Below, piece after piece: positions 6,895 to 35,253 of a stretch of DNA of 63,611 nt. The notes under the pieces were generated by a model. The model did not search any database, was not told where the DNA came from, and saw only the letters and a list, made by a program, of their open reading frames with translations. Source of the DNA: Lachnospiraceae bacterium (GTDB lineage: Bacteria; Bacillota; Clostridia; Lachnospirales; Lachnospiraceae). Numbering within the stretch: the first letter of the stretch is position 1; every line of letters starts with the position of its first letter. Position numbers and translations under genes: made by a program. The DNA lies in NCBI GenBank assembly GCA_017484135.1, contig JAFUTQ010000046.1, positions 1 through 63,611 of the forward strand, written 5' to 3'.

Positions 6895-7027
6895 AGGGGG
6901 AAAAGGTCATGCCGACATAGTCGGCATAGACTCTTTGTGTAAGAAATCGTCTCGGAAAGCTCGCTTTCCGATCCGATTTTCTACACAAAGTGTTCACATC
7001 GTTTCACGATGTGAACACTTTTCCCCT
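6895..7027. repeat. Cloverleaf-like structured repeat, copy A
   Basis: An element with three internal hairpins closed by an outer stem. The outer stem pairs 6895-6906 with 7018-7027 (AGGGG/AAAAG against CTTTTCCCCT, one bulged G). Arm 1 (6909-6927) is ATGCCGAC, loop ATA, GTCGGCAT. Arm 2 (6933-6990) is a long imperfect stem with base CTTTGTGTA/TACACAAAG and apex GGAAAGC/GCTTTCC. Arm 3 (6991-7017) is TGTTCACATCG, 5-base loop, CGATGTGAACA. Arms 1 and 3 are the same in copies B and C; the other stems differ in sequence but still pair. It lies in the inferred 5' leader of proB. Confidence 0.88.
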
Positions 7028-7040
7028 GATATCATCCTAT

Positions 7041-7069
7041 ACTTTACCATATTTTTTATAGAGGGTCAA
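7041..7069 (-). promoter_or_regulatory. Probable sigma-A promoter for proB operon
   Basis: On the minus strand a TTGACC -35 box (7064-7069) stands 17 bases from a TAAAGT -10 box (7041-7046). It points toward proB across structured repeat copy A, so the transcript would begin with that repeat. Confidence 0.55.
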
Positions 7070-7235
7070 AAGTTTCCCGTTGTTTCATGAATTTTTTACG
7101 AAAATTTAAGAATTCCATCATGTTTTTTTCACTCATTGATTCCCATTCTCATGCTATACTCCGGGTATCCGGCTGGTCTGCATTTACCGGAGGTTCATCC
7201 GGTTTTCCGTGTGTCAAAGGTTCCTTGATTATTTC

Positions 7236-7593
7236 ATAAGGCTTTACACCCTGGGAGAATTATGATAGCATATAATCATCTAAGGGGTGTGATAAATATG
7301 ACAGATCATGAATTATTGTTAGCGATTTCCAACATTGTTCAATCACAAATTGAGCCATTAAAAACGGACATCCATGATACAAAATTACTGCTCGAAAATA
7401 ATCTGTTACCAAGATTGCAAAATATCGAATCGTGTTACACATCTACATATCGCAGATATTCCAGTGCTGTTGAACAAATTGACTCCATTCAATCCGATGT
7501 ACAAATATTAAAAAAAGTCGTAGCAGAACACAGCGAAAAGCTGCAAAAATTAGCATAATGTTTATCTGATTATCAAAAGGTGTAAAGTCTTAT
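7236..7593. repeat. Cassette bounded by 15-bp inverted repeats
   Basis: ATAAGGCTTTACACC at 7236-7250 is matched in inverted orientation by GGTGTAAAGTCTTAT at 7579-7593, with one mismatch. The enclosed stretch of about 330 bases holds one small ORF and nothing else. The layout resembles a miniature insertion placed just ahead of apbE. No convincing target-site duplication is visible, so mobility is only a suggestion. Confidence 0.5.
7298..7558 (+). CDS. Small predicted coiled-coil protein of unknown function
   Basis: An 86-residue protein starting at an ATG 10 bases after AAGGGG; an earlier in-frame ATG at 7262 has no ribosome binding site. It has no signal peptide or membrane segment. The sequence is heptad-like: a first helix up to LLPRLQNIE, a conserved-looking CYTSTYRRY turn, then a second helix ending KKVVAEHSEKLQKL. 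This resembles a short helical hairpin. I do not recognise a function. It lies inside the inverted-repeat cassette and ends 74 bases before apbE on the same strand. Confidence 0.6.
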   Translation: MTDHELLLAISNIVQSQIEPLKTDIHDTKLLLENNLLPRLQNIESCYTSTYRRYSSAVEQIDSIQSDVQILKKVVAEHSEKLQKLA

Positions 7594-7632
7594 CCCTGTG
7601 TAACCGGTAACCGCGATTTACAGGAGAATGCC

Positions 7633-8643
7633 ATGAAGTACCGCAGACCAATTATTTTGAATCTATGTATCCTTTCCCTCCTACTGCTGCTCTGCGGCTG
7701 CAGCCGCAAAAGCGAGCCAATCCGTAAAAGCGGATTTTATTTTGACACTGTCATTACCGTTACTCTGTATGAAAAAGAGCAGGAACCCTTACTGGAGAAA
7801 TGTCTTGCTCTGGCAGACCGCTATGAAAAGATGTTCAGCAATACCATCGCAGATAGTGATATCAGCAAAATCAACGCCGCGGCCGGCAATCCGGTAACGG
7901 TATCCGATGAGACCATTGAACTGCTAAAGCTTGGCATCCACTATGGGGAGCTCAGTGACGGCGCGTTTGATATTACGGTGGGACGCTTGTCCTCCCTTTG
8001 GGATTTTTCTGACAATACCGGGACGATTCCCGGAGCGGATGAGATACAGGAGGCTTTGACCTCCATAGATTATCATGCCATAGAAATTGACGACAATCAG
8101 GTAAAACTGAACAATCCGGACGCGCAGCTTGATCTTGGCGGGATCGCCAAGGGCTATATTGCAGACCGGATGAAGGATTTCCTTGTGGCGCACGGCGTGA
8201 CAAACGGGATCATAAATCTGGGGGGAAATGTTTTGGTTATCGGAAGCAAGTCAGACGGTTCAGGGTATACGATCGGCATTCAGAAGCCCTTTGAAGAAAC
8301 CGGAACCGCCATTGCCAGCGTCCGAATTTCCGACCGGACGGTCGTGAGCTCCGGCGTGTACGAACGCTATTCTTATTATGAGGATCAATTATATCACCAT
8401 ATTCTGGATACCGCAACCGGATATCCCTGTGAAAACGATCTGCTGGGCGTATCCATCATCTGCGGCAGCTCTGCGGACGGCGATGCCCTCAGCACCATTA
8501 CCTTTACAAAGGGTCTGGATGCGGGCATGCGCTTTATAGAAGGTCTGCCGGATACAGAGGCAATCTTTATCACTGTAGACTATGAAGTATATACGACCTC
8601 CGGCGTCGGAAAAAATATGGATTTTATGCTACGGGATTTTTGA
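7633..8643 (+). CDS. apbE: FAD:protein FMN transferase, lipoprotein (ApbE family)
   Basis: Attaches FMN covalently through a phosphoester bond to threonine in S/TGAT-type motifs, using FAD as donor. The N-terminal signal ends in a lipobox (LLLCGC, about residue 23), so the enzyme is tethered outside the membrane. ApbE signatures follow: FDTVITVTLY, GAFDITVGRLSSLWDF, DLGGIAKGYIADRM, NLGGNVLVIG, and the GLSTITF-like DALSTITFTKGLDAGM near the end. At 336 residues it is full length. The likely substrates are RnfD and RnfG encoded about 8 kb away, both of which carry flavinylation motifs. It ends 12 bases before a hairpin shared with the convergent surface-protein gene. Confidence 0.93.
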   Translation: MKYRRPIILNLCILSLLLLLCGCSRKSEPIRKSGFYFDTVITVTLYEKEQEPLLEKCLALADRYEKMFSNTIADSDISKINAAAGNPVTVSDETIELLKLGIHYGELSDGAFDITVGRLSSLWDFSDNTGTIPGADEIQEALTSIDYHAIEIDDNQVKLNNPDAQLDLGGIAKGYIADRMKDFLVAHGVTNGIINLGGNVLVIGSKSDGSGYTIGIQKPFEETGTAIASVRISDRTVVSSGVYERYSYYEDQLYHHILDTATGYPCENDLLGVSIICGSSADGDALSTITFTKGLDAGMRFIEGLPDTEAIFITVDYEVYTTSGVGKNMDFMLRDF

Positions 8644-8655
8644 GTAACAGGAAAA

Positions 8656-8677
8656 AAGCCACCCGATCGGGTGGCTT
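8656..8677 (-). terminator. Intrinsic terminator between convergent genes
   Basis: A perfect palindrome AAGCCACCCGA/TCGGGTGGCTT. On the minus strand it is followed by a run of T (8651-8655), ending transcription of the surface-protein gene. On the plus strand the A/T tail is shorter but may also serve apbE. Confidence 0.8.
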
Positions 8678-8686
8678 AAAAATCCG

Positions 8687-10729
8687 CTATCTGACCCACT
8701 CCCCATTACGATTCAAACGATAGGCTCCGATTCTGGTGTTCGCCGCCATCACGCCGGAAGCGTAGCTGTAATACCATTTTCCGCTTACGGTGTACCATCC
8801 GGTCTGCATTGCGCCGCTCTCACTCAGATGATACCATGCGCTCCCATCCTTGAGCCATCCGGTCTGCATCGCACCGCTTTCACTCATGTAATACCATTTG
8901 CCGCCATCGCTGACCCAGCCCGTCTCCATTGCGCCGCTCTCACTCATGTAATACCAGGCGCTTCCGTCACTGACCCAGCCCGTCTCCATTGCGCCGCTCT
9001 CACTCATGTAATACCAGGCGCTTCCGTCACTGACCCAGCCCGTCTCCATCGCGCCGCTTGCGCTCATGTAATACCAGGTGCCGCCGTCACTGACCCAGCC
9101 CGTCTCCATTGCACCGCTCTCACTCATGTAGTACCATGTGCCGCCGACATTTACCCAGCCGGTCTGTATCGTTCCGTTTTCGTCCGTGTAATACCATGTA
9201 CTCCCGTTTTTTACCCATCCGGTCTGCTTGGCTGCGCTCAGCTTTTTGGTGTTTTCTGTCTGAGAGCTTCCCGGCTTCTGCGTATTGTCCGTGCTTTCAG
9301 CATCCTCTGTCTCGTCTTCCTCCGCTTCCTTTTTGGGAATTCTGATGATCTTGGTAGCCTGATAGGTTGTTCCTTCCCTTTTGACACTCGCCGTATAAGT
9401 AATCAGTCCATCCGCTGCGTAGGTCGCTTCCTTTGTCGTGCTTGTGACAGTACATCTTACCACCTGCGTATCGTCCTTGTCCACACAGGTAAAGGCTGCC
9501 GTTACCGTATATCCGACATTTGTTTCCGTCCATGTAAAGGCCGGTTCGCCATAGGTATGAACATGAGGGTCTAATTTGTCAAAATCAAATCCATTGTCTT
9601 TTGCATAGGTTTCTGCCGCTGTGCCCGTATAGCCCGAAATCGTAAGCTGCTCTGATTTCGCATTGGGATTGCCATTTTCATCATCCAGAAATCCCAACCC
9701 GCAATCATCCATGTCGGTTACACTTTTGGGGATCGTAATATCGGTCAGACTGCTGCAGCCATAAAAGGTTTCCTTGCCGATTCCTTTCACACCATCCTCT
9801 ATCACAATGGTTTTGATGTCGCTTCGATAAGCGTCGTACGTCTTTTCACTGATTGTACCCGTTCCACTGATTGTCAGAGTGCCGCTGTCTGAATCAAACT
9901 TCCACGTTACATCCTCTCCACAGCTGCCGGAGGTTTCCACGATTCCCTCCACGTCCACGAGGATGTCTACCGGATAATCCAACCACTCATCCAGCGAAGA
10001 CTTGACCCGTATCGAATAGGTGCCATTGTCTGTCACATGGATCGTGTCTCCGGCTTCGGAATTCGAATAAAACTGATTCGATGCGATTTTGTCTACGGTT
10101 GCCTTGTCATTGACCCACGAGCAAATCGTGGAGCCGATGCTGGTGTGATAATTGATGTCTGCCGCGGTAGCGGTTTCGTTTAGCGTCACGTCTGCGGATA
10201 GGACGGAGGATGAGGGCAGCCAGTACATGTATGCGTGATGAGTGCAATTCATTGTTTCAATTTTCAAATAATAAATTCCCTTGTCCAGATAATATGTCTT
10301 TCCATTGTCTGGCCAATAATTGGGGGTAATTTCTTTCGATAATGAACTATTCGCATAAAGATCAGTATTTGCAAGACGATGCCACGACGCAGTTCCCTCA
10401 TTTGTTCTATAATTTTCAAAAAACAGCCATCCTCTCTCATTGACCGTAATCGCATACACTGTTTCTGCGGTCGTCCCCGAATCATTCGTTTTCACATACA
10501 CCAACCCTTCATCCGCCGCAACCAACTCCTCAATCTGCCCTGGAGCCGTAATCGTCATTGGCGTAATCGACTCTGCCGCACCTTTCGGAAGTATTTCCGC
10601 ATAGATTTCTCCTGCACCTCCCGCATCCCCCGCATAAGCGGTCACATCCACCACTCCAAAGAGCATCATACAGGCCATAGCCATCGATATCATACTTTTC
10701 CAAATTGTTTTCCCGGTTACCTGCTTCAT
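8687..10729 (-). CDS. Secreted surface protein with BspA-like segment and eight cell-wall-binding repeats
   Basis: A 680-residue exported protein. The ATG chosen has AAGGAGAG 7 bases upstream and is followed by a signal peptide (KTIWKSMISMAMACMMLFG... ending near AYA). Around residues 275-350 lies a leucine-rich-like BspA segment (GTLTISGTGTISE, IEDGVKGIGKETFYGCSSLTDITIPKSV). A beta-rich segment and a T/S/E linker come next. The C-terminus holds eight 20-residue choline/cell-wall-binding units of the form TGWVSDG..WYYMSESGAME. It is likely attached non-covalently to the envelope; the ligand is unknown. It is divergent from a Xre regulator gene across a compact promoter region. Confidence 0.88.
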   Translation of the reverse strand: MKQVTGKTIWKSMISMAMACMMLFGVVDVTAYAGDAGGAGEIYAEILPKGAAESITPMTITAPGQIEELVAADEGLVYVKTNDSGTTAETVYAITVNERGWLFFENYRTNEGTASWHRLANTDLYANSSLSKEITPNYWPDNGKTYYLDKGIYYLKIETMNCTHHAYMYWLPSSSVLSADVTLNETATAADINYHTSIGSTICSWVNDKATVDKIASNQFYSNSEAGDTIHVTDNGTYSIRVKSSLDEWLDYPVDILVDVEGIVETSGSCGEDVTWKFDSDSGTLTISGTGTISEKTYDAYRSDIKTIVIEDGVKGIGKETFYGCSSLTDITIPKSVTDMDDCGLGFLDDENGNPNAKSEQLTISGYTGTAAETYAKDNGFDFDKLDPHVHTYGEPAFTWTETNVGYTVTAAFTCVDKDDTQVVRCTVTSTTKEATYAADGLITYTASVKREGTTYQATKIIRIPKKEAEEDETEDAESTDNTQKPGSSQTENTKKLSAAKQTGWVKNGSTWYYTDENGTIQTGWVNVGGTWYYMSESGAMETGWVSDGGTWYYMSASGAMETGWVSDGSAWYYMSESGAMETGWVSDGSAWYYMSESGAMETGWVSDGGKWYYMSESGAMQTGWLKDGSAWYHLSESGAMQTGWYTVSGKWYYSYASGVMAANTRIGAYRLNRNGEWVR
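8744..9223 (-). repeat. Eight tandem 60-bp coding repeats (cell-wall-binding units)
   Basis: Eight 60-bp units encode the cell-wall-binding motifs of the surface protein. The central units (about 8880-9120) are nearly identical in DNA, including silent positions. That implies recent duplication or gene conversion and likely copy-number variation. Confidence 0.85.
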
Positions 10730-10772
10730 AATCTTCTCTCCTTTTCTTCGTGTAATCATTCTGCATATGCAA

Positions 10773-10816
10773 ATGATATCATTCGTTTTGTGTATTGTCA
10801 ACACATATTGTGTATA
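10773..10816 (-). promoter_or_regulatory. Promoter of the surface-protein gene with overlapping dyad (putative Xre operator)
   Basis: On the minus strand TTGACA (10796-10801) is 17 bases from TATCAT (10773-10778). The -35 box is embedded in a dyad-like stretch (about 10788-10816) with TGTG...CACA and a repeated TTGTGTAT. This is a plausible operator for the divergently encoded Xre protein. Confidence 0.6.
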
Positions 10817-10868
10817 TACCAAGAGTTTCATCCAATAATAATGTTATATTATGATTGAGGTGAACAAA

Positions 10869-11198
10869 ATGGATTTCGGAAACACATTACGAATTTTAAT
10901 CGAGGATCGTGACAAATCGCAAAAGGAGGTTGCAAACGACTTGAATATCGCGCCCACCACACTCGGTAACTATGTCAGAAATCTGCGTGAGCCCGACTTC
11001 GAAACGCTGGTAGCCATTGCAAATTATTTTGAAGTATCAACGGATTATCTGCTGAATCACAAAAACCGCAATGGTTTAAGCCCGCAGGAAGAACGATTAT
11101 TACATTTGTTTTCAAAATTACCGGAGGAACAAAAAGAAATTTTTTTTGAAATCGGAAAAATATTGAATAAAAAGAGAAAACTCCTCATCCGCGAATAA
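10869..11198 (+). CDS. Xre-family transcriptional regulator
   Basis: A 109-residue DNA-binding protein. The helix-turn-helix is at about 6-60 (RILIEDRDKSQKEVANDLNIAPTTLGNYVRNLREPDFETLVAIANYFEVSTDYLL), followed by a helical tail (SPQEERLLHLFSKLPEEQKEIFFEI) that may mediate dimerisation. The start is chosen at the ATG 7 bases after GAGGTG; an in-frame ATG 18 bases earlier lacks a ribosome binding site. It is divergent from the cell-wall-binding-repeat protein and probably controls that promoter and its own. It ends in a terminator hairpin that is duplicated 1.3 kb away. Confidence 0.85.
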   Translation: MDFGNTLRILIEDRDKSQKEVANDLNIAPTTLGNYVRNLREPDFETLVAIANYFEVSTDYLLNHKNRNGLSPQEERLLHLFSKLPEEQKEIFFEIGKILNKKRKLLIRE

Positions 11199-11216
11199 AC
11201 GGATGGGGAGTTTTTT
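11178..11216 (+). terminator. Terminator hairpin of the Xre gene (repeat copy 1)
   Basis: Stem AACTCCTCATCCG / CGGATGGGGAGTT with loop CGAATAAA followed by seven T. A nearly identical hairpin, in the same orientation, occurs at 12463-12497. Confidence 0.8.
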
Positions 11217-11275
11217 TCGTTATTTTACAGCAAAACAAAACCGACCTTGACTCTGTTTTTTCTTGAAACATTTTA

Positions 11276-12172
11276 TTAAAAATATCGTTTCACATCTTCC
11301 AGAGTGACGTCTGAGTAGTTCGGATTCTTCACAATCCTTGCCAGAATCTCCTCGGGAGTTGTCAGAAATTCCTTCAGTGAAGTGATCCATGCACCGAGAC
11401 TTTGGTTGCGTTCTTCGGTGCGACCCTGTAGTAGTCCTTCGTTGCGCCCTTTTTCCATCGCGTCCCGCTTGGTAAGCTCTAATCTCCGTTCAAATGTAAA
11501 ATCTAACGTCATAATCTTCGTCACCTCCGCTTTTCGTTTCCGGAAAAATTCTTCCAGAATATGATTCTGAATACAATATTGTATCGCCTGTTCGATTGAT
11601 TGTTTCAAGGGCACGTCGTTCTTGATATATTGCCGCACCTTGTCAATGAATATCATATAGCCTTTCAGTACAGGACTTTTTTCCAACAGATTTTTGTTGT
11701 GATTTGTATTGATGTTGTAAGTGGTACACTTTAATTCCAGCTCCGGTTCATCCGTCGGCTGCATAAACGCACTGGATAAGTACATGATTTCCACATCCGG
11801 TCGTGGCTCGATCCCGTTATAAAACACCACAAAGTGCGGAGTGGGTATTTTAACCAGTGTTCTTTCGAACCAGTCCATGTCTTTGATTAAATCCCGAATC
11901 AGGTCTGAGAAATAGACCAGATTCCGCAAGGGCATGTTGGGACAGTAGCTGGATTGATGCTCATATAAATTGAAATACGAATCAATAATAAACGAAGCAT
12001 CGTTTCGAATCGACAGTGAAAAACTGCTCTCGAGTTTCTTTACATAGATATCCTCGGGATTGTCATAATGAGTGTTGTTCAGCGCGTTATACACTTCCAG
12101 CGCATACTCCGGTGTCTGCATCAGCAGACTAAAGACATCGCTTTTGTACTCTCGATTTCCTGTTATTGACAT
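11276..12172 (-). CDS. Rpn-type PD-(D/E)XK nuclease / putative transposase-family protein
   Basis: A 298-residue member of the PD-(D/E)XK nuclease family transposase group (Rpn-like), very abundant in Lachnospiraceae. The start region (REYKSDVFSLLMQTPEYALEVYNALNNTHY) and the nuclease core are seen. In the core, an aspartate in SFIIDSYFNLYEHQSS is followed by the E-x-Q of the active site, and ELELKCTTYNINTNHN carries a further K. A helical tail (RLELTKRDAMEKGRNEGLLQGRTEERNQS) is typical of the family. It probably cleaves DNA and promotes RecA-independent recombination; whether it moves itself is unclear. It sits between two direct copies of one hairpin. Confidence 0.82.
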   Translation of the reverse strand: MSITGNREYKSDVFSLLMQTPEYALEVYNALNNTHYDNPEDIYVKKLESSFSLSIRNDASFIIDSYFNLYEHQSSYCPNMPLRNLVYFSDLIRDLIKDMDWFERTLVKIPTPHFVVFYNGIEPRPDVEIMYLSSAFMQPTDEPELELKCTTYNINTNHNKNLLEKSPVLKGYMIFIDKVRQYIKNDVPLKQSIEQAIQYCIQNHILEEFFRKRKAEVTKIMTLDFTFERRLELTKRDAMEKGRNEGLLQGRTEERNQSLGAWITSLKEFLTTPEEILARIVKNPNYSDVTLEDVKRYF

Positions 12173-12529
12173 ATAAATCCTCCTTTGATTCTTCGCAGGA
12201 GGTTCTCTGCCAGATCAGTTGCTTGTAGGTTCTGATTTTTATCCGGAAAACTCCTGCTTATTCTGTTAATAAATGGGTTGTAAAAGCAAGAATTTTCATA
12301 ATAATAAAGATATAAATAAAGGATGATTAAAAAACGTGCAAGCCCCGATGCCCACGCCTGGCAAGAAAATTTGCTTTGATATCAGTATAATTCGGAGAAA
12401 TAAAATTTGCAAGGAATAATTTTGGTTTTATGATGGAATCCCAATTTTGGAACCGAAAATAAGAACTCCCCATCCGCGAATAAACGGATGGGGAGTTCCC
12501 ATATTCAGATCAGTGCCAAAGCCCGATCA
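12173..12529. other. Intergenic region with duplicated hairpin, no gene
   Basis: A 357-base AT-rich stretch upstream of the nuclease gene and downstream of the truncated surface-protein gene. Apart from the hairpin at 12463-12497 and a ribosome binding site just before the nuclease start (AAGGAGG near 12178-12184), I see no ORF with a start signal and no RNA gene. Confidence 0.6.
12463..12497 (-). terminator. Hairpin copy 2, probable terminator of the truncated surface gene
   Basis: Stem AACTCCCCATCCG / CGGATGGGGAGTT with the same loop as the hairpin at 11178, differing at one or two bases. It lies 33 bases after the stop of the leftward surface gene; the downstream T tract on that strand is weak. 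Confidence 0.6.
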
Positions 12530-13906
12530 CTATTTTACCCATGCTCCCTTACTGTTTAATCGATACCCACCGATCACGGTATCATGAGCCATCGCACCGG
12601 ACTCATTCAGATAATACCATGTGCCGCCATCCTGCCAGCCGGTCTTCATCGCTCCGCTTGCAGTAAAGTAATACCAGTCTCCGTTTACCAGCTCCCATCC
12701 GGTTTCCATAGCTCCGGTCGTGTCGGTATAATACCAGTCCTGGCCATCATATACCCATCCGGTTTCCATAGCCCCATCCTCGCTGAGGTAGTACCATGTA
12801 TTTCCGCTCTCATACCATCCGGTTACCATATATCCGCTGGCATCAAACGCGTACCAGGTGTCTCCGATCTGCTGCCAGCCGCTTGACGTATAGCTGCCAT
12901 CGTTATTCTCATACCACCATTTTCCGTCTGCTCCCTGCTTCCACTCACCGGAAGACTCCTCCTGCTTGGGGGTTGTATTTTCCTGCCTTGTGGCTGTATT
13001 CTCCTGCTGAGGGGTTGTATTCTGTTCTGCCTGTTGTTCCGATTCTGTGGGCGCCTGATTGATGTTGTTACTTGCAAGCACCTGATCCTCCGCTACAAAA
13101 TACGTCGAGAAGGAGTTCGTGCTGCACTTGATCCTTCCACTGAAATCTGACTCAGAGGAAACAAACAGCTTTTCAATCGTGCCATCCTCTTTGATATGGA
13201 AAAGCGCCGGTTTTTGGTATCCGGACAGTTCATTGAGATACAAATTCACGTCCTTCTCCGGCTCTACCTCCGTCTCATTGTCCTCAATCAGGCTGATATC
13301 AATTGCTGTCAGCTTGGAGTCTTTATTTGTCAGAATCGTCTGTATTTTGCTCTGAACATCCTGCTTCGCTGTCCGCACGACCGGATAAGTTGCTGCTCCG
13401 AGCGCGTCCGCAGACACATCCACGATCAGCGGATCTCCGTTCACTGCCGCAGAGGTTCCTCTTACCTGCTCATTCTCAATCGTACGCTCCGTTCTGGTAC
13501 ATACATTCCCTTCATAGACCACGTGATTGATATATCCCTCAAGTTCATGGAAGTCCACAAGCAGCTCTCCGTTCTCCATGATCTTTCCGGCATTGGGAAT
13601 CGGCGCATAATTTTCCTCATAAGGCGGCTCATACGGGCTTTCGTGATCCTCTACGCCAACATCATCATAGCTTGCCGAGAAAACAACATCTCCATTGATC
13701 GTCACATCCCCCTGATAGCTCTTGTTCAGGCTTAAAAATCCGGTATTTCCGTTTACGGTAATCGAGGACTCTCTGCTATCAGCTGCAAACAGAATGTCTC
13801 CGTTGTCATCTCTTTTATAAATATAATCGCCCGTCTCATCATCATAGAAATACTGTGCTCCGGAGCTGCAGGAGCAATCCAGTGTCACATCTCCGTTGAC
13901 CGTCAC
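12530..13906 (-). pseudogene. 5'-truncated cell-wall-binding-repeat surface protein, in frame behind rnfB
   Basis: A 458-codon reading frame whose only plausible start is a GTG without ribosome binding site and without any signal peptide. Upstream, the frame runs back through eight codons to the rnfB stop TAG, which is in the same frame. The N-terminal part has bactofilin-like or beta-helix-like VNGDVTI repeats. The middle contains a Q/T-rich linker (about residues 285-320). The C-terminal part has six cell-wall-binding units (GW...WYY) ending IGGYRLNSKGAWVK, like the other surface protein here. Because all similar proteins need export, I infer a deletion that removed the 5' half and fused the rest to the end of the rnf operon. 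A functional short product cannot be excluded. Confidence 0.6.
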
Positions 13907-13930
13907 ATTTAAGATGTCCCATGGACATGC

Positions 13931-14722
13931 CTACACAATAATCTTCTTCGGGCACTTCTGCGCACACACCCCGCATTTCGTACATTTACTCTGATCAATG
14001 TAGGCGATATTGTCCACCACATGCACCGCGTCAAACGCACAGTTTTTCTCACAGAGCCGACAGCCGATACAGCCCGCGGTGCAGGCCTTCATCACATTTT
14101 TTCCCATATCCTTTGAGCTGCACTGCACGATATGTTCTGCATCGTAGGGCAAAAGCTCAATCAGCCCCTTCGGACAGGCAGCCACGCATTTGCCGCACGC
14201 CTTGCACGCCTCTTTGTCCACCCGGGCAATTCCGTCCACGATATGAATCGCATCAAAGGGACAGGACTTCACGCAATTTCCAAAGCCGAGACAGCCGTAG
14301 CTGCAGGACTTCGCACCGCCATTCGGCACAAACGAAAGCGCAGCACAGTCCTCCACTCCCGTGTATTGATAATCCTGTTTTGCCTTTTCACAGGTGCCGC
14401 CGCATTTCACAAAGGCGGCCTGTCTGACGCCTTCCTCCGCGGCGACTCCCATGATTTCTCCGACCTTATTTCCCACAGCAGCACCGCCTACCGGGCAGCC
14501 GTTTACCGGTGCTTCTCCTTTGACAATGGCAGCAGCCAGACCGGAACAGCCCGCATAGCCGCAGCCTCCGCAGTTATTTCCCGGAAGGATCTCTAAGATG
14601 GACTCCTCCCTCGGATCCACCTCTACCTTGAATTTTTCACTGGAAAATCCCAGAAAAAAACCAATGATAATACCAACACCGCCGACAATGGCGGCCGCAA
14701 TAATTACAGGCAGAATATTCAT
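13931..14722 (-). CDS. rnfB: Rnf complex iron-sulfur subunit RnfB
   Basis: Electron-input subunit of the ferredoxin:NAD oxidoreductase, cytoplasmic-facing with an N-terminal membrane anchor (about 5-25). After the anchor comes the 4Fe-4S motif CGGCGYAGCSGLAAAI...CPVGG, then polyferredoxin-type clusters: CSYGCLGFGNCVKSCPFDAI, CKACGKCVAACPKG, CIGCRLCEKNCAFDAV and CTKCGVCAQKCPKK. At 263 residues it is a normal clostridial size. Last gene of rnfCDGEAB, 12 bases after rnfA with AGGAGG. Its TAG stop is in frame with the truncated surface gene behind it. Confidence 0.96.
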   Translation of the reverse strand: MNILPVIIAAAIVGGVGIIIGFFLGFSSEKFKVEVDPREESILEILPGNNCGGCGYAGCSGLAAAIVKGEAPVNGCPVGGAAVGNKVGEIMGVAAEEGVRQAAFVKCGGTCEKAKQDYQYTGVEDCAALSFVPNGGAKSCSYGCLGFGNCVKSCPFDAIHIVDGIARVDKEACKACGKCVAACPKGLIELLPYDAEHIVQCSSKDMGKNVMKACTAGCIGCRLCEKNCAFDAVHVVDNIAYIDQSKCTKCGVCAQKCPKKIIV

Positions 14723-14734
14723 TCCAATCTCCTC

Positions 14735-19034: not shown

Positions 19035-19047
19035 ACACAACCATTTC

Positions 19048-23753: not shown

Positions 23754-23903
23754 CAGAATTTGAGGGGAAAAAGGTTCACATCGTGAAACGATGTGAACAC
23801 TTTGCACAAGAGCCCTTGCAGGAAAGCCAGCTTTCCTGCAAGGGTTTTGTGCAAAGAGTCTATGCCGACTACGTCGGCATGACCTTTTTCCTCTCAAATT
23901 CTG
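23754..23903. repeat. Cloverleaf-like structured repeat, copy B (inverted orientation)
   Basis: Same plan as copies A and C but on the opposite strand. The outer stem pairs 23754-23774 with 23883-23903 (about 20 bp, one G-U). GTTCACATCG/CGATGTGAAC (about 23774-23798) is the arm with a 5-base loop. The middle arm (23800-23856) has base CTTTGCACA, apex GGAAAGC/GCTTTCC and a different GC-rich mid-section. ATGCCGAC/GTCGGCAT (23862-23880) has a 3-base loop. It lies between the HI0933-type gene and cmk. Confidence 0.88.
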
Positions 23904-26767: not shown

Positions 26768-26802
26768 AGTTTGTCCGCCTTCTGCTTTTTGTATATGGTT
26801 GA

Positions 26803-26848: not shown

Positions 26849-26915
26849 TTACATCGTCCTATGGTTCACTGCATGATCGGTAACGGCAATTTGGGCATGA
26901 AAAACATCGTTCTTC

Positions 26916-28328: not shown

Positions 28329-28344
28329 GATTCTATCTTCCTCC

Positions 28345-29496
28345 TTAAATACCAAAGATTGCCATAAATACTCCGGCAGCTACTGCCGTACCGATTACTC
28401 CGGCAACATTCGGCCCCATTGCATGCATAAGTAAAAAGTTGGTCGGATCCTCCTCCGCGCCCACCTTCTGTGAGACACGGGCAGCCATCGGAACGGCCGA
28501 TACACCCGCGGAACCAATCAGCGGATTGATCTTACCCTTTGTAACCGAGCAGAGTACCTTTCCAAGCAATACACCCGCGGCTGTACCGAAAGCAAAGGCA
28601 ACCAGTCCCAGTGCAACAATCTTTAAAGTGCTGACATTTAAGAATGCCTCTGCACTGGTAGACGCGCCTACGGAGGTTCCCAGAAGAATAACGACAATGT
28701 ACATCATCGCGTTCGATGCGGTCTCCTGCAGCTGTCTTACCACGCCGGACTCCCGGAACAGATTTCCGAGCATCAGCATACCCACCAAAGGTGCCGTAGT
28801 CGGCAGCAACAGACATACGATGATCGTCACCACGATCGGGAATAAAATCTTTTCCAGCTTTGACACCGGACGCAGATTTTCCATTTTGATGGAGCGCTCT
28901 TTCTTAGTGGTCAAAAGCTTCATGATGGGCGGCTGAATAATGGGAACCAATGACATATAGGAATATGCCGCCACCGCGATCGGTCCCATCAGACTGGTCT
29001 GCCCCAGCTTTCCTGCAAGGAAGATGGATGTCGGGCCATCCGCTCCGCCGATGATGGATACCGCTGCAGCTGCCTTATCATTAAAGCCCATCAGTATGGC
29101 CAAAAGATACGCCGCAAAAATACCAAACTGTGCAGCCGCTCCCAAGAGGAAGCTGATCGGATTCGCAATCAGCGGACCAAAGTCTGTCATCGCACCCACT
29201 CCGAGGAAAATCAGAGAGGGAAGGATCGACCACTCGTCCAATGTATAGAAATAATACAACAACCCGCCCACACCATTACTGGTCTGCTCCGGACTTGCAA
29301 TGATGTCCGGATAGATGTTGACAAGCAGCATACCAAATGCAATCGGAACCAAAAGCAATGGTTCATAGCCCTTCTTGATCGCAAGAAACAAGAATATACA
29401 GGCCACCACGATCATCAGATAATTGCCCCAGGTCAACTGAAAGAATGCAGTCTGATGCAGGAGGTTTCCCAATGTTTCTGCAACATAACTTAACAT
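28345..29496 (-). CDS. Sodium-ion-translocating decarboxylase beta subunit (OadB/GcdB/MmdB family)
   Basis: Membrane subunit that decarboxylates carboxybiotin and pumps Na+ out. Its 383 residues carry many membrane segments and the family motifs [35 protein letters not shown] (with the Na+-binding aspartate) and [16 protein letters not shown]...[18 protein letters not shown]. It sits between the biotin carrier and the OadA-like gene, with AGGAGG before its ATG. Which acyl substrate it serves depends on the carboxyltransferase partner. Confidence 0.92.
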
Positions 29497-29511
29497 AATA
29501 AACCTCCTAGC

Positions 29512-29877
29512 TTACTCATTCATCGTCGCAAGAACTGCACCGGCCTCAACGCTGTCTCCCACAGCCACATCAATGCTTGCCACGGTTCCATCCTTGGGTG
29601 CTACCACCGGTGTCTCCATCTTCATGATCTCAAGTACCAGCACCGGATCGCCTGCTTTTACCGCTGTGCCCGGCTCCGCTTCAATCTTGAACACCTTGCC
29701 TGCCGCTCCGGCTTCGATTTTGATACTGCCTGCCCCGCTTGCTTTCGCCTTCGGTGCCGCAGCAGGTGCCGCTGCTTTTCTGGGTGCAGCTGCCGCTGAC
29801 GGTGCCGCTGTCTGTCCGTTCTCTTCCACTGTTACATCATAAACATTTCCATTCACTGTAATTGTATAGCTTTTCAT
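29512..29877 (-). CDS. Biotin carrier protein of the decarboxylase/transcarboxylase complex
   Basis: A 121-residue biotinyl-domain protein. After a short N-terminal domain and an alanine/proline-rich linker (about 22-48), the biotinyl domain carries EIMKMETP, with the lysine that is biotinylated, followed by DGTVASIDVAVGDSVEAG. It matches GcdC/MmdC/1.3S-type carriers. It is preceded by AGGAGGAG and lies directly upstream of the beta subunit gene. Confidence 0.92.
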   Translation of the reverse strand: MKSYTITVNGNVYDVTVEENGQTAAPSAAAAPRKAAAPAAAPKAKASGAGSIKIEAGAAGKVFKIEAEPGTAVKAGDPVLVLEIMKMETPVVAPKDGTVASIDVAVGDSVEAGAVLATMNE

Positions 29878-29901
29878 TGTTAGCTCCTCCTATTTTCCCT
29901 C

Positions 29902-30672
29902 TTATCTTCTTTTTATAGAACGAACGACAAAACCGTCCGCTGAACTTCCTGTTGCCGCTGCAATTGCGGCGCTGATCACTGCCACCAGCTCGAGATCATC
30001 TGTAAGATTCTCCGTCGGCTGCACAGCCGCCTGTGCCGCTCCTGTCGGTACCGCGATCACATCCTGCTGTGCCTGCTTTTTCCTATTTTCCAGATACGGC
30101 ACAAGACGGAAGCAATAAATCACGAGACTGATCGCGATCAGAATGATAAATACCAATCCCATTCCCATCAGCGTGTTCATACCGGCCTTCGCCATGGTAT
30201 CTCCAAGTGATGTCTCCCGGTTTACCGATGCCGCTTCTATAAGCAGCCCATCGTTATCGCGCAGTTCGGCATAATCACAAACCAACGTAAAAAACAGCGT
30301 GCTGTCCGGATATATCAGCTCCAGATCCAGCGTCATCACGTCCTTTTCGATCGTGACATTCATCTCGCCAAAGCCAATCCGTTTTCCCTGTCCCTCACGC
30401 GCCTCCTGAAAGGTGGTAATCAGTTCATAATTCAACGGATCATCTTCCTGTGAAATCTGACTCAACGCGATATCAAGCTCTTCATCTGTATAAAGGTCAA
30501 GATTCGAGATGATACCTTGCATATCATCCTTCAACTTATCATAGCTGTAATAGCTGCCGTAATCATAGGTTCTCGGATCGTCCTTTGCACCGATCGAATC
30601 ATTCTTGCCACAGGCTGTAAGACACAGCGCCAACAGACCGATACTTACAAGCATCCATATTTTTTTCTTCAT
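29902..30672 (-). CDS. OadG-like subunit with lipoprotein-type N-terminal extension
   Basis: A 256-residue protein beginning with a signal peptide and lipobox (LALCLTACGK). An extracytoplasmic domain of about 140 residues follows (DYGSYYSYDKLKDDM...DLELIYPDSTLFF). Next is a membrane helix GMGLVFIILIAISLVIYCFRLVP and a cytoplasmic tail ending VISAAIAAATGSS..FVVRSIKRR. The last part matches OadG gamma subunits, which are usually about 80 residues with only the helix and tail. The outer domain is therefore an extension. It sits between the carboxyltransferase and biotin-carrier genes. Confidence 0.78.
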   Translation of the reverse strand: MKKKIWMLVSIGLLALCLTACGKNDSIGAKDDPRTYDYGSYYSYDKLKDDMQGIISNLDLYTDEELDIALSQISQEDDPLNYELITTFQEAREGQGKRIGFGEMNVTIEKDVMTLDLELIYPDSTLFFTLVCDYAELRDNDGLLIEAASVNRETSLGDTMAKAGMNTLMGMGLVFIILIAISLVIYCFRLVPYLENRKKQAQQDVIAVPTGAAQAAVQPTENLTDDLELVAVISAAIAAATGSSADGFVVRSIKRR

Positions 30673-30685
30673 AGGTCTCACCTTT

Positions 30686-32122
30686 CTATTTTGTGCCATG
30701 CTTCTTGTACGGAGTATCTACGCGCTTTGTAAACAGCATCTCAAAGGCTGCGACCAGATATTTTCTGGTTCCTTCCGGCTCAATGATGAGGTCTACATAG
30801 CCTCTCCTTGCAGAGGTGACAATATTTGACTGCAGCGCTTCATAGATTTTCGCCTTCTCGTCCAGTTCCTCCGCCGATGCCTCCGGGTACATAATTCCCG
30901 CCGCCAGTCTTGCATCCATGGTTCCGGTCTTGACATCCGGCCACGCATATACCAGATCTGCCCCGATCGATTTGGAATTCATGATCACGCCGGCACTGCC
31001 GTATGCTTTATCCACCAGCAGATTCACCTTCGGAACGGTTGCATTTGCAAATGCATAGGTCAGCCTGCTTAATGCTCTGGCCAGTCTGCGCTCACTGCAT
31101 TTGGTTGCCTTATATCCGGTCACATTTGCAATAGAAAGAACCGGGATCTCAAAGGCATCGCAAAATGCCAGAAAATCCGTTGCTTTCTCACAGCCCTTTG
31201 CGGTAAGGACGGTATCAAATTGTTCCGTTTCCTTTCCGTCTTCATCATGAATCCGGGAATTATTTGCCACCACTCCGATTGTGAGACCGTTCAATTGAAT
31301 AAATCCGGTAACCATGTTCTTTTCGTAATTCCGCTTTGTTTCAAAGAACACATGATTGTCCGCAATTTCACTGAGAATAAAACGAGAATCTCCTCTCATG
31401 GTGTCTAAGTTTGCGCTGACACGATTCAGATCATCCCCGCAATCCTCACCATAGTCATGCGATGTATTGTCGGCCGGAAGCAGACCTACGAGACTGCGTA
31501 TGCTATCTATAATTTCCTCCTCCGTGCCGATCTGGTCAATTAAGCCGGTCTCCTCACTCTGAAAAACAGCGGAGGATGTGTCGCAGACCTCCACACGATT
31601 CCCCTCAATGGCATTGGGCGAATTGACAAACAGCTTCGCCTGATCCGCCTCCATAAATGCAAAATCGCAAAGTCCCGGAACAATGCTCAGACCACCGCCG
31701 CAATTTCCAAACACGGCGCAAATCTGCGGAATCACGCCGGATGCCGCAACCTGTTTTTCATAAATTACACCCAATGCATCCAAAGCGTCCACAGACTCCT
31801 GCAGACGAACACCGGCACAGTCTAAAAAACCAATAACCGGCGCGCCCATCTTTACCGCCTTGTCATACACTGCCGCAATTTTCTTTGCATGCATTTCGCC
31901 AATCGTTCCATTCAGCACAGATGAATCCTGACTGTACACAAATACCAGATTGCCATCAATAAGACCATGTCCTGTGATGACTCCATCGGAAGGGGTATCC
32001 GTCTGCGTCAGATCAAAATCCGTGTTTCTCGCTGTGACCAGAGAACCGATTTCCATAAAGCTGCCCTCATCCAGCAGCTTTTTCAGCCTCTGCTCTGCCA
32101 AGTTGTTGCTTCTGTCACTCAT
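30686..32122 (-). CDS. Acyl-CoA carboxyltransferase subunit (MmdA / 12S-like)
   Basis: A 478-residue protein of the acyl-CoA carboxylase beta/methylmalonyl-CoA decarboxylase alpha family. Visible are the N-terminal AEQRLKKLLDEGSFMEIGSLV, GDGVITGHGLIDGNLVFVYSQDSSVLNGTIGEMHAKKI, GAPVIGFLDCAGVRLQES, the oxyanion-type CGGGLSIVPGLCDF and KAYGSAGVIMNSKSIGADLVYAWP. It acts on an acyl-CoA substrate (for example methylmalonyl- or glutaconyl-CoA), which cannot be fixed from sequence. It is first in the operon after a good promoter. Confidence 0.88.
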   Translation of the reverse strand: MSDRSNNLAEQRLKKLLDEGSFMEIGSLVTARNTDFDLTQTDTPSDGVITGHGLIDGNLVFVYSQDSSVLNGTIGEMHAKKIAAVYDKAVKMGAPVIGFLDCAGVRLQESVDALDALGVIYEKQVAASGVIPQICAVFGNCGGGLSIVPGLCDFAFMEADQAKLFVNSPNAIEGNRVEVCDTSSAVFQSEETGLIDQIGTEEEIIDSIRSLVGLLPADNTSHDYGEDCGDDLNRVSANLDTMRGDSRFILSEIADNHVFFETKRNYEKNMVTGFIQLNGLTIGVVANNSRIHDEDGKETEQFDTVLTAKGCEKATDFLAFCDAFEIPVLSIANVTGYKATKCSERRLARALSRLTYAFANATVPKVNLLVDKAYGSAGVIMNSKSIGADLVYAWPDVKTGTMDARLAAGIMYPEASAEELDEKAKIYEALQSNIVTSARRGYVDLIIEPEGTRKYLVAAFEMLFTKRVDTPYKKHGTK

Positions 32123-32170
32123 TTCTTAATCCTCCATCTATATTTGAAAAATCAGTAACTGCTCATTACA

Positions 32171-32195
32171 GCTGCAAGCATCTGCTGCTTGCAGC
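32171..32195 (-). other. Leader hairpin upstream of the MmdA-like gene
   Basis: GCTGCAAGCA/TGCTTGCAGC forms a perfect 10-bp stem with a 5-base loop. It lies in the 5' leader between the promoter and the first gene, without a T tract, so it is probably structural rather than a terminator. Confidence 0.55.
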
Positions 32196-32242
32196 ATGCG
32201 CAGGAGTACACATACAAAAATCAAAAAATTCCGCTAGTCTAT

Positions 32243-32271
32243 ATTTTATTACTTTGATGTTTTTTTTTCAA
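32243..32271 (-). promoter_or_regulatory. Promoter of the carboxyltransferase operon
   Basis: On the minus strand TTGAAA (32266-32271) and TAAAAT (32243-32248) are separated by 17 bases, about 120 bases upstream of the first gene. Confidence 0.6.
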
Positions 32272-32301
32272 TAGATGCGCCCAAATTAAATTGATGTTTT
32301 C

Positions 32302-33516
32302 TTATAAAACAAAACGCGCTAAAATCTGTCTAAGGCGCCACATATAATCAATTTCATCAACATCTCTGCCAATTGTCAGATAATCCGTTCGAATGCACGT
32401 CTCGCCTGCCAGATAGGTAATCGTCCCGACAATCTGTCCCTTCTTTACCGGAGCCGTCAGCTCTGTCTCTTTTTCATACAGCACGGTAATCTGCTGATCG
32501 TTCCGCAGCAAAAGTGTCTCGGGCGCATCGGGATCCTCTGTTCGAAGAAGCTCCACCGCATCCGTTCCGTATAAACTTTCCGTTCTGGCGTTTTGTACTG
32601 TGATGGGTTCCATACATTCCTGCGGAACCGGTACCTCTCCTACTTCCCATCGGTCAAAATAATCCAGACCGTACTGCATGAGCTTTTTCGTATCAGCCCA
32701 CTTATAGGTCTTGTTATTTGGCCATCCGCAGCCTAAAAGTGCCACCACATAGGTTTTTCCTTCTCTGGTCAGCGCCCCTACATAACAGTATCCGGCGCTT
32801 CCCGTAAATCCGGTTTTTCCCGTGAGTGCCCCGTCCATCATTTTCAAAAACGCATTGTGATTCAGACAGCTGTAGGTTTTTGTTCCCGCAAGATTGGAAA
32901 ACGAATAGGACGGTGTCTGTGTAATGGTTAAAAACAACTCTTTCTGGGGCGATGCTGTAATACAATAGCTTAGTATTTTTGCCAGATCGATGGCCGTGGT
33001 GTGATGTGTTCCCTCTGCATCCGCTTTATCCAGACCATTCGGTGTGACAAAATGTGAGTTTTCGCACCCGATCGCGCGTGCTTTTTCGTTCATGAGCCCG
33101 GCAAAGGCTTCCACATTTCCCGCCACATGCTCCGCAATGGCCACTGCTGTGTCGTTGTGGGACTCCAGCATCATGGAATAGCAGAGATCCTCCAGACGAA
33201 ACTGCTCCCCGGAAGCCGCATTCAGCTGGACATCCGGCTGTTTTGCCGCATATTCGGAAAATGTGACAATCTCATCGAGGGGCGTACTCTCCAAAGTAAT
33301 AATCAGGGTCAGCACTTTGGTAGTGCTGGCATTTGCCCGCTCCTCCTGTCCTTCCTTTTCGTACAAAACACGCCCGGATTCCGCATCCATCAGACATGCG
33401 GACAATGCATAGAGTCCCGCAGGCTCCTCAATTTCCTCCGCCCGGATATTTACCGGCTGCTGCAGACATAAAACCACAAAAAAAAGACCTGCCATAATTC
33501 GTTTCACACGTTTCAT
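32302..33516 (-). CDS. D-alanyl-D-alanine carboxypeptidase (S11, DacF-like)
   Basis: Exported penicillin-binding protein trimming peptidoglycan pentapeptides. After a signal peptide (residues 1-26, ending about NIRA) come the three S11 motifs: SxxK as ASTTKVLTL, SxN as MLESHND, and KTG as LTGKTGFTG. A C-terminal beta domain follows, with a helical end (RLRQILARFVL) that could associate with the membrane. At 404 residues the protein is complete. A second S11 enzyme is encoded at 36.1 kb. It is transcribed after the scpAB pair and may be part of that unit. Confidence 0.93.
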   Translation of the reverse strand: MKRVKRIMAGLFFVVLCLQQPVNIRAEEIEEPAGLYALSACLMDAESGRVLYEKEGQEERANASTTKVLTLIITLESTPLDEIVTFSEYAAKQPDVQLNAASGEQFRLEDLCYSMMLESHNDTAVAIAEHVAGNVEAFAGLMNEKARAIGCENSHFVTPNGLDKADAEGTHHTTAIDLAKILSYCITASPQKELFLTITQTPSYSFSNLAGTKTYSCLNHNAFLKMMDGALTGKTGFTGSAGYCYVGALTREGKTYVVALLGCGWPNNKTYKWADTKKLMQYGLDYFDRWEVGEVPVPQECMEPITVQNARTESLYGTDAVELLRTEDPDAPETLLLRNDQQITVLYEKETELTAPVKKGQIVGTITYLAGETCIRTDYLTIGRDVDEIDYMWRLRQILARFVL

Positions 33517-33624
33517 GCATACCTCATAAAAAGGTTACGACTCCGGCCCAATCAGCCGCAACCGATCACCATAAAAATTTCGTCTATGCATTTTATGACA
33601 CGTCCTTTACAGATATGTATCTCT

Positions 33625-34194
33625 TTATACCCCAAGCTTTACCTGAGCTTCTTCCTCGGCCTGCTTCTTAAACTCCTCCATCTGATCGGGATCCAGCACC
33701 GGCAGTTCCTCAATCGACTGTACCCCGAAGCTTCGGAGAAAATCCTCGGTAGTGCCGAAAAGCATTGGCCGTCCCGGTGCATCCAGACGCCCAAGCTCCA
33801 TAACAAGATTATACTCTACCAGCTTATTGACTGCATGATCGGAGGACACCCCGCGGATCTTCTCGATCTCCGCCTTGGTAATCGGCTGTTTGTATGCAAT
33901 AATGGACAGGGTCTCCAGCAAAACATCGGTCAGCACACGTTTTTTCGGCTGCTTTGCAATGCGGATCAGATACTCATACATCTCATTTTTTGTACACATC
34001 TGATAGGCATCCTCCAGCTCAATAATCTGAATTCCCCGGTTCTCCTGCTCATATTTTTCCTGCAGCTTCCCGATCAGTTCTTTTGTCTGTTCCTTGTCCA
34101 GCTCGACTGCGTTGCTGATCTGTTCCAGATCCACCGAATCACCCATGGTAAACAGAATCGCCTCGATCACAGCCTCATAATTTATTGTATCCAT
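33625..34194 (-). CDS. scpB: Segregation and condensation protein B
   Basis: Winged-helix subunit of the SMC-ScpAB condensin. Its 189 residues show AVIEAILFTMGDSVDLEQI, then TLSIIAYKQPITKAEIEKIRGVSSDHAVNKLVEYNLVMELGRLDAPGRPMLFGTTEDFLRSFGV. These are the conserved paired winged helices, and a short acidic tail follows. It lies 19 bases after scpA with AGAGGTAAGAG before its ATG. Confidence 0.95.
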   Translation of the reverse strand: MDTINYEAVIEAILFTMGDSVDLEQISNAVELDKEQTKELIGKLQEKYEQENRGIQIIELEDAYQMCTKNEMYEYLIRIAKQPKKRVLTDVLLETLSIIAYKQPITKAEIEKIRGVSSDHAVNKLVEYNLVMELGRLDAPGRPMLFGTTEDFLRSFGVQSIEELPVLDPDQMEEFKKQAEEEAQVKLGV

Positions 34195-34213
34195 CTCTTA
34201 CCTCTGCCGCCCT

Positions 34214-34963
34214 TCAGGCTGCAATCTTTGAATCTATGCGAATATCATCAAAAATCTTATCCTGATAAATATAAATCTTTCCCACCTTCATCAGCTCCAG
34301 CACAGCCAGAAATGTAACGATGATATTCATCTTGCTGCACTGCGCTTCCAGCAGACTCCGAAAGCTGAAATGCGGGTGCTCAATTGCATACCGCTCCAGA
34401 TATTCCATCTTGTCGGACAGAGACACCTCTTCCTTTTCGATTCTCCCGAATTTCGAACGGATCGGGTCGATCTTATTCTCCTGCTTGCGCATGATGGATT
34501 TGAAAATGTCGTTCAGCTTTGACAATGTCAGGTCTGCCACCAGCTCGTCCAGGTTTACCGGCTCCTCATAGGTGGAAACCTCTTCCGGAATGGTTGGCTC
34601 CTTAAACATAACGCGCATAGCATCCATCTGGCGATCCTTCAATTCATAGGAAATGCATTTGTACATTTTATACTCCAGTAACTGCTCCACCAGCTCTGCT
34701 CTCGGATCCTCCTGCTCTTCCTCGTCGCTCTCCTCTACCGGAAGCAGCATTCTGGATTTGATATCAATCAGCGTCGCAGCCATGACCAGAAATTCACTGA
34801 CTACGTTCAGATCCTGGCGCTTCATCTCACGGATATACTCCAGATACTGATTCGTAATCTCAACGATCGGAATGTCATAGATATTTACTTTATTCTTATC
34901 CAGCAGGTGCAGCAGCAGATCCAGCGGTCCCTCAAACACCTGAAGCTTTACGGTCATATCCAT
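34214..34963 (-). CDS. scpA: Segregation and condensation protein A
   Basis: Kleisin subunit bridging the SMC heads. Its 249 residues include the N-terminal signature VFEGPLDLLLHLLDKNKVNIYDIPIVEITNQYLEYI, an acidic linker (EESDEEEQEDP) and the C-terminal winged helix (FLAVLELMKVGKIYIYQDKIFDDIRI). A good promoter lies about 35 bases upstream, followed on the other side by structured repeat copy C. Confidence 0.95.
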   Translation of the reverse strand: MDMTVKLQVFEGPLDLLLHLLDKNKVNIYDIPIVEITNQYLEYIREMKRQDLNVVSEFLVMAATLIDIKSRMLLPVEESDEEEQEDPRAELVEQLLEYKMYKCISYELKDRQMDAMRVMFKEPTIPEEVSTYEEPVNLDELVADLTLSKLNDIFKSIMRKQENKIDPIRSKFGRIEKEEVSLSDKMEYLERYAIEHPHFSFRSLLEAQCSKMNIIVTFLAVLELMKVGKIYIYQDKIFDDIRIDSKIAA

Positions 34964-34996
34964 TTTCTTTACCTCGCGTTTTGTCCTGCATGTTCT

Positions 34997-35025
34997 ATTT
35001 TAACTGTATCTTGTGGAAAACGCAA
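34997..35025 (-). promoter_or_regulatory. Promoter of scpA-scpB
   Basis: TTGCGT (35020-35025) and TAAAAT (34997-35002) on the minus strand, spaced 17 bases, about 34 bases upstream of scpA. Confidence 0.6.
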
Positions 35026-35060
35026 GTGTTTTTACAAAATATTGTGTTTTTATTGAAAGG

Positions 35061-35253
35061 ATGCCGGGAATGCCGAGACCGGGGCAGGATGGAAAGAAGC
35101 GGTCATGCCGACGTAGTCGGCATTGACTTTTTGCACAAGAAATCTCTGGAGAAAGCCAGCTTTCTCCAGAGATTTTTTGTGTAAAGTGTTCACATCGTTT
35201 CACGATGTGAACCGCTTCTTTCCATCCTGCCCCGGTCTCGACCTTCCCGGCAT
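35061..35253. repeat. Cloverleaf-like structured repeat, copy C (extended outer stem)
   Basis: The outer stem is 42 bp (35061-35102 paired with 35212-35253, two mismatches). Inside are ATGCCGAC/GTCGGCAT (about 35105-35123), a middle arm with base TTTTTGCACA..., apex GAGAAAGC/GCTTTCTC and its own mid-section (about 35127-35186), then GTTCACATCG/CGATGTGAAC (about 35187-35212). The two small arms match copies A and B. The right outer arm is also the last 17 codons of the metallophosphoesterase gene. Confidence 0.9.

Follow-up and report, generated by a model that had tools for sequence, protein, structure and literature searches.

Three cloverleaf repeats in one contig

The window analyzed here is a stretch of 63,611 nucleotides from a Lachnospiraceae bacterium of the gut (contig JAFUTQ010000046.1). 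It contains three copies of a cloverleaf repeat: a closing stem whose loop encloses a core of about 110 bp with three hairpins. We refer to the genome of the window as G000 (83% complete), to further genomes by G-numbers and to loci by L-numbers. The initial annotation had reported the three copies, and we found them as described, with the extents of A and C slightly refined as listed below: folded alone as DNA, copies A, B and C each form a closing stem and three hairpins (z = -12.9, -15.3 and -20.5, respectively), and none of 200 shuffles of any of them folds as well. The parts follow each other in one orientation as 5' closing arm, arm 1, middle arm, arm 3 and 3' closing arm:

6897..7026, plus strand: copy A, whole cloverleaf, closing stem and three hairpins (sequence, DNA fold)
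6897..6906, plus strand: copy A, 5' closing arm (10 pairs with 7017-7026, 1 mismatch)
6906..6931, plus strand: copy A, arm 1 (sequence, fold)
6932..6990, plus strand: copy A, middle arm, with a TCT/ATC internal loop (sequence, fold)
6992..7016, plus strand: copy A, arm 3 (exact pattern match)
7017..7026, plus strand: copy A, 3' closing arm (pairing with the 5' arm)
23754..23903, minus strand: copy B, whole cloverleaf, whose 5' arm has the one-mismatch form of the GATTTGAG ends (sequence, fold)
23884..23903, minus strand: copy B, 5' closing arm in element orientation (20 pairs, 1 mismatch)
23858..23883, minus strand: copy B, arm 1 (sequence, fold)
23800..23856, minus strand: copy B, middle arm (sequence, fold)
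23774..23798, minus strand: copy B, arm 3 (exact pattern match)
23754..23773, minus strand: copy B, 3' closing arm in element orientation (pairing with the 5' arm)
35055..35259, plus strand: copy C, whole cloverleaf (sequence, fold)
35055..35101, plus strand: copy C, 5' closing arm, with GGGGCAGGATGG in common with L112 (47 pairs, 3 mismatches)
35102..35127, plus strand: copy C, arm 1 (sequence, fold)
35128..35186, plus strand: copy C, middle arm (sequence, fold)
35188..35212, plus strand: copy C, arm 3, in which the minus-strand frame 35200-36126 has its stop codon, 35200-35202 (exact pattern match)
35213..35259, plus strand: copy C, 3' closing arm, through which the same frame reads (pairing, frame)

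In the window copies, arm 1 reads GTC-ATGCCGAC-NNN-GTCGGCAT-N-GAC, arm 3 reads GTTCACATCG-TTTCA-CGATGTGAAC, and the middle arm has a near-constant base and the apex GAAAGC/GCTTTC. Copy C adds to the 3' end of the frame 35200-36126, which runs through the closing stem to the stop in arm 3 and whose product we take to be metallophosphoesterase-like. The relatives of this frame in seven congeners stop 7-12 codons after F(N/D)RAEL.

Copy number and spread of the family

We used a covariance model built from an aligned set of 42 copies (model 1) to search the genus, that is G000 and the seven congeners. Since 150 candidates were scored per genome (in G000, 150 of 1,763 first-look candidates), the resulting counts are lower bounds. 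Raw matches amounted to at least 137 in G000, on both strands, and at least 12 in the congener G056 (99% complete), and to none among the 150 candidates scored in each of the other six congeners. By retaining the better strand at each place, we extracted from 192 cmsearch matches 86 distinct placed copies in G000 and 7 in G056; two of the 86 places overlap and have arm 1 in common (L069). Partial matches (L042:2501, L046, L047, L051, L060:2421 and both halves of L075), a few other weak overlapping matches and the arm-only site L058 were left out. The arm 3 pattern GTTCACATCG-N-CGATGTGAAC has 58 exact occurrences in G000. A covariance-model search of the genome and its relatives had been proposed along with the first description of the repeat; its outcome is this large set of copies, in which the covariation is upheld (see below).

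Two loci have more complex arrangements. L069:2200-2545 is a composite of two cloverleafs with a common arm 1, extra end sequences and an inserted GA-cis RNA, and L121:2420-2690 is a nested palindrome, whose outer stem reaches the first half of arm 1 and which holds a second full cloverleaf inside.

A gapped pattern of the element matched 16 loci in genome_contigs, 15 of which, one truncated (L158), come from five Lachnospiraceae assemblies: JAIEAP (G056), CAJTCY (G305), JAAWBG, CANOHX and CANOFO. The family therefore has relatives in other genera of Lachnospiraceae. The sixteenth locus, L154 of Acetatifactor muris, matches the pattern yet lacks the fold, and we removed it. A second model, applied to 396 genomes of the family with eight candidates scored per genome and stricter filters, had matches in at least eight of them; these include G000 and G056, as well as G085, which is doubtful, G404, which is uncertain, and G176, which is the same genome as G305. 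In G316, G240 and G364 the fold is present with quite different arm letters, and three G316 copies have differing closing stems around a common GAGGTCAAA or GAGGTCAAAA core. The copy pattern was not matched in L223, L225 and L226. The exact arm 3 sequence occurs in none of 298 other genomes of the family and nowhere in genome_contigs (which possibly does not include G000), because the arms change between species.

We discarded the possibility that the element is phage or plasmid cargo: the pattern had no match in viral_contigs, copy B was unmatched in phages, and one G305 element used as query had no plasmid match. No earlier description of the family was found in the literature searched, a search outside which most subscription journals lie, and the portions available of PMC10969869, PMC2229807, PMC3733652 and PMC2267715 hold no account of it.

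Recurrent ends, target duplications and gene context

The sequences GATTTGAG...CTCAAATC recur as the ends of the element and form terminal inverted repeats. With up to two mismatches, GATTTGAGGGNCAAAAGG occurs 44 times in forward and 45 times in reverse orientation in G000, compared to 0 and 1 for a control pattern, and it is located at the closing-stem ends of many copies. Of these 89 matches, 33 lie more than 70 bp away from any kept copy. We examined 21 of these solitary ends, in 20 stretches, and at least 14 of the 20 contain, by eye, parts of arm 1 or of arm 3; these stretches are therefore deleted remnants. No gene-bearing copy with GATTTGAG ends was seen in the 20 stretches, which were inspected by eye near the ends only. 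At six loci we also asked whether half-elements delimit a gene-bearing copy; by eye, none of the open reading frames (ORFs) there was recognised as a transposase.

Five of the 33 copies of G000 with both ends are flanked by exact direct repeats of at least 5 bp (6-8 bp as measured, for example ATACATAT and ATTTTAT), as compared to 0.4% of 1,056 mismatched flank pairs (P ~2e-7). When the edges of the stems were used instead, direct repeats of at least 7 bp were found in 5 of 70 copies (null 0.4%). The model search found the cloverleaf in none of the seven congeners at sites B and C; its sole match, in L096, was another G056 copy past the neighbouring gene.

The orientation of the copies relative to the flanking genes is even (++ 26, -- 26, -+ 14 and +- 13, with 7 of the 86 undecided), and none of 74 copies is spanned by an ORF of at least 150 amino acids. 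Of 66 gene 3' ends, 31 fall between -10 and +12 nt from the edge of the stem, as opposed to 2 of 77 gene 5' ends. The ORF and gene-end counts and the repeats at stem edges, as well as the G/C composition and shared 9-mers reported below, exclude L108 and L119, which are included in the totals of stem length and mismatches. As read from the sequence, a GATTTGAG end preceded by T gives TGA in two frames, which may be the reason why insertion at gene 3' ends is tolerated.

A candidate partner insertion sequence in a relative

In G305 (CAJTCY), the cloverleaf lies within a unit of ~210 bp with the ends (C/T)TTGAGTTTCCG / CGGAAACTCAA(G/A). We tried to resolve the ends at eight loci, three of which gave no end pair, and all five copies with both ends resolved have direct repeats of 7-13 bp. 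Following a match to one of the ends, we found an insertion sequence that measures ~1.57 kb, has perfect ends of 14 bp (CTTGAGTTTCCGCA/TGCGGAAACTCAAG) and is flanked by a direct repeat of 10 bp with a single mismatch (GATTGTCCTT/GATTGTACTT). It codes for a protein of 417 amino acids with a DDE_Tnp_1 domain at 3.6e-14. The gene-less G305 units, which we regard as miniature inverted-repeat transposable elements (MITEs), start with either CTTGAGTTTCCGCA or TTTGAGTTTCCGCA, and 12 of the 14 letters of their right ends are the same as in the insertion sequence. The transposase scores 53.4 against DDE_Tnp_1 of Pfam, above the cut-off of 23, and at best 52.1 bits against the IS4 models of NCBIfam, below the cut-off of 115, and we therefore refer to this partner only as IS4-like. 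A protein 76% identical to it is found in the congener G300. Shared ends and target duplications support the insertion sequence as a candidate mover of the G305 MITEs, and by analogy an IS4-like partner might be proposed for G000, where none was found.

Some G305 copies have further elements next to them. Those at L147, L150 (= L192, L189) and L149 (= L190) adjoin core-less or right-end remnants and share their direct repeat with them, which looks like repeated insertion of elements side by side. At L195:1500-1742, a cloverleaf at a contig end is split in its middle arm, and the intruder resembles another insertion sequence.

Taken with the recurring ends, the target duplications of some copies and the even orientation, the same-ended insertion sequence of this relative makes us confident that the cloverleaf is a mobile element, as the initial annotation had offered among its possible roles.

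Pairing is conserved while the sequence changes

Among the 42 copies of model 1, at least one two-sided change is found in 19 of 44 pairs. We then aligned 33 sequences (32 distinct) from six genomes across species, where 28 of 45 pairs have two-sided changes, a number that none of 500 shuffles equals. This alignment holds 167 two-sided cells (43 in shuffles), 20 one-sided and 45 unpaired ones, and 96.9% of the cells are paired, as compared to 84.4% after shuffling and to 37-47% after sliding the partner. It is thus borne out that, as claimed, the copies preserve their folding and not their sequence. Arms 1 and 3 had been called constant, which is true of A, B and C; between species they differ yet stay paired, and so covary as well.

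In a selected RNA strand, G-U pairs are expected to be tolerated more than A-C mismatches. The outer stems of the 86 rows contain 107 mismatches in 2,353 pairs, 29 of them G-T and 30 A-C. Across species, the numbers of G-U and A-C are 1 and 2 in the outer stem, 8 and 6 in arm 1, and 1 and 3 in arm 3, and in the middle arm they reach 20 and 9. No Rfam family matches the three copies of the window at gathering score, where one tRNA is the only match, and only tRNA and GA-cis were matched in 28 further loci.

These data bear on whether the element is a structured RNA, either cis-regulatory or small, with a fold selected on the transcript and spread as a repeat. Strong covariation across species and the middle-arm excess of G-U would be expected of such an RNA, and the closeness to gene 3' ends would suit a terminator or an mRNA protector. 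However, neither the even orientation relative to genes, nor the outer stems without G-U preference, nor the lack of any Rfam match over the element agrees with it, and we regard this explanation as unlikely. The regulatory RNA suggested at first therefore loses most of its ground, with some room left by the middle arm, whereas the proposed DNA cruciform target keeps the part that the pairing behaves as a property of DNA; no binding protein came to light, although none was searched for.

The GA-cis RNA (RF02987) lies in hairpin loops of cloverleafs at L069:2253-2343 (arm 3) and at L073:5102-5192 and L075:2384-2474 (middle-arm apex), and at L043:3364-3455 in the loop of another, imperfect hairpin. 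Four of the nine GA-cis copies checked are thus in a hairpin loop, a count without a null, which is a hint that GA-cis, too, is mobile and has a preference for loops.

Closing stems are variable and mostly look related

The closing stems of the 86 G000 rows have a median of 24.5 bp, and 70 of them reach at least 15 bp and 33 at least 30 bp. They are nearly perfect and differ in sequence from copy to copy. The longest inside a contig is that of L080 (72 pairs, 2 mismatches), and L062 and L065 have 49 and 46 pairs without a mismatch. The stems of L108 and L119 extend to contig ends and may be artefactual. When these two are excluded, GATTTGAG with at most one mismatch is found in 32 of the 68 stems of at least 15 bp, and 23 of the other 36 have a 9-mer or longer in common with another of this group (21% in shuffles). 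G exceeds C in the 5' arm of all 68 (837 and 214 in total). Because of the shared 9-mers and the excess of G, most closing stems look related and borne by the element despite the differences between copies.

This argues against the core having inserted into the loop of a pre-existing host palindrome, such as a terminator, with closing stems made of host sequence. Under such a scenario, stems would vary by copy and often adjoin stop codons, as they do, and two of the seven congeners (G303 and G304) have unrelated inverted repeats of 11 and 12 bp at the site C spacer. However, the closing stems of B and C are found in none of the seven congeners, whose longest inverted repeats score 4-7 at site B and 6-12 at site C, compared to 19 and 40 in the window. 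Together with the G-rich 5' arms and the 9-mers common to stems that lack the common end, this renders a host origin of the stems improbable. That short-read assembly produced the long private stems as fold-back artefacts, as the two reaching contig ends might suggest, can be given very little credit, since other long stems are internal to their contigs and differ in the flanks to either side, and copy-specific stems are also present in the separate assembly of a different genus (L215, L222, L224).

Changes shared by the two arms

In five copies (L113, L064, L057, L117 and L123:4048), a block has been added or duplicated in both arms, as judged by eye. In 3 of 33 copies (L073, L056 and L123:2501), the flank beyond GATTTGAG is palindromic as well (null 0.1%). 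In 2 rows the middle arm has the inverse of the orientation seen in 13 others, and the arm 3 loop reads TTTCA in 42 rows, TGAAA in 3 and TAAAA in 1, with the exact arm missing in 36. Template switching has been reported to create and maintain hairpins (PMC8794818) and to yield homogenisation of arms and inversion of spacers (PMC8604942), as far as the available parts of these papers go.

Because the outer stems have no G-U preference, blocks are added to the two arms together, loop inversions occur and host flank is palindromic in a few copies, the pairing seems to be kept mainly at the DNA level, judging from these sequence patterns. Copying from arm to arm is the better-supported reading of how it is kept, and we consider it, with moderate confidence, the main keeper of pairing. 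Since such copying gives the same pattern, the preserved folding becomes a weaker sign of selection on the fold.

Discussion

We favor, with fairly good confidence, the view that the cloverleaf is a MITE with an unusual four-way-junction core, moved in trans, whose arms are rewritten by template switching. The closing stem would carry the terminal inverted repeats and the three hairpins would fill the interior. The mover of the element is most likely a DDE transposase supplied from elsewhere, for which the IS4-like protein of G305 is a candidate. After insertion, template switching during replication may often rewrite the palindrome, with one arm templating the other. This would keep the stems complementary while the sequence drifts, add or duplicate blocks in both arms together, flip loops and sometimes extend the palindrome into host flank.

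Several observations weigh against this view. As to mobility, 28 of the 33 end-bearing copies have no exact duplication of at least 5 bp, and 36 of the 68 stems of at least 15 bp have no recognisable GATTTGAG. The G305 transposase is unmatched in G000, 83% complete as noted, and in G056, and the single DDE_Tnp_1 protein of G000 has no matching ends. As to arm copying, the G-U excess of the middle arm leaves room for selection at the RNA level. Moreover, 21 disjoint nearest pairs show 44 single-sided changes as opposed to 33 clean double ones, so that not every change is simultaneous, and 13 rows keep an internal loop (TCT/ATC) whose asymmetry ought to have been erased if arm correction were unlimited. 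Given the single-sided changes and the persistent loop, we hold that single mutations arise and that copying from the other arm then overwrites them frequently, though not every time.

Arm copying may also be part of propagation itself, with a self-primed single-stranded or cruciform intermediate making matching ends afresh, a variant that we find doubtful. If it were true, the ends would be private to each copy and might include local sequence, and the folded core would be what is recognised, so that the mobile element would be defined by its shape and not by its end sequence.

We compared the family with known systems on the basis of the portions of the cited papers available to us. The closest are MITEs derived from insertion sequences, such as QMITE2 of Coxiella, which has direct repeats of 7-9 bp, terminal repeats of 23-29 bp and a core of 113-145 bp (PMC10969869). 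The cloverleaf resembles them in size, in being gene-less and intergenic, in its terminal inverted repeats and short direct repeats, in its stable stem-loop fold and in the movement in trans that is proposed for it. Unlike them, it has a conserved four-way junction of three hairpins as a core, its terminal repeats vary by copy and reach tens of bp, and its arms covary. With the CIR elements of Caulobacter and Brucella, which have two arms and a linker, it shares a multi-arm fold conserved across species, and it differs from them in having three arms plus a closing stem (PMC2229807). Homogenised arms, compensatory changes of several bases and spacer inversions are known from template switching at quasipalindromes (PMC8794818, PMC8604942); unlike the published cases, ours are deduced over many loci of one mobile family and include added blocks and host flank.

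The cloverleaf is also palindromic, intergenic and present in high copy number, as are the repetitive extragenic palindromes (REPs) associated with RAYT (PMC3733652), and membership in a known REP family had been named as a possible outcome from the start. An element of REP or REPIN type would be moved by an IS200-like tyrosine transposase recognising single-stranded hairpins. However, Y1_Tnp (PF01797) is found in neither of the carriers G000 and G056, while it is present in four of the six non-carrier congeners; REPs are 20-40 bp long with a GTAG or CGTC tag (PMC3733652), smaller than the cloverleaf; and the target duplications, as well as the DDE insertion sequence of G305 with shared ends, point elsewhere. 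We consider this assignment highly improbable.

Covariation is the usual proof of a functional structured RNA. Here, strong covariation occurs over dozens of copies with no outer-stem sign of selection at the RNA level, and the family can therefore serve as a natural control for RNA-discovery pipelines. It also provides a many-copy record of apparent template switching in bacterial palindromes, in which blocks are added, loops invert and palindromes grow at different loci. To the Lachnospiraceae it probably adds a family of MITEs whose four-way junction is conserved.

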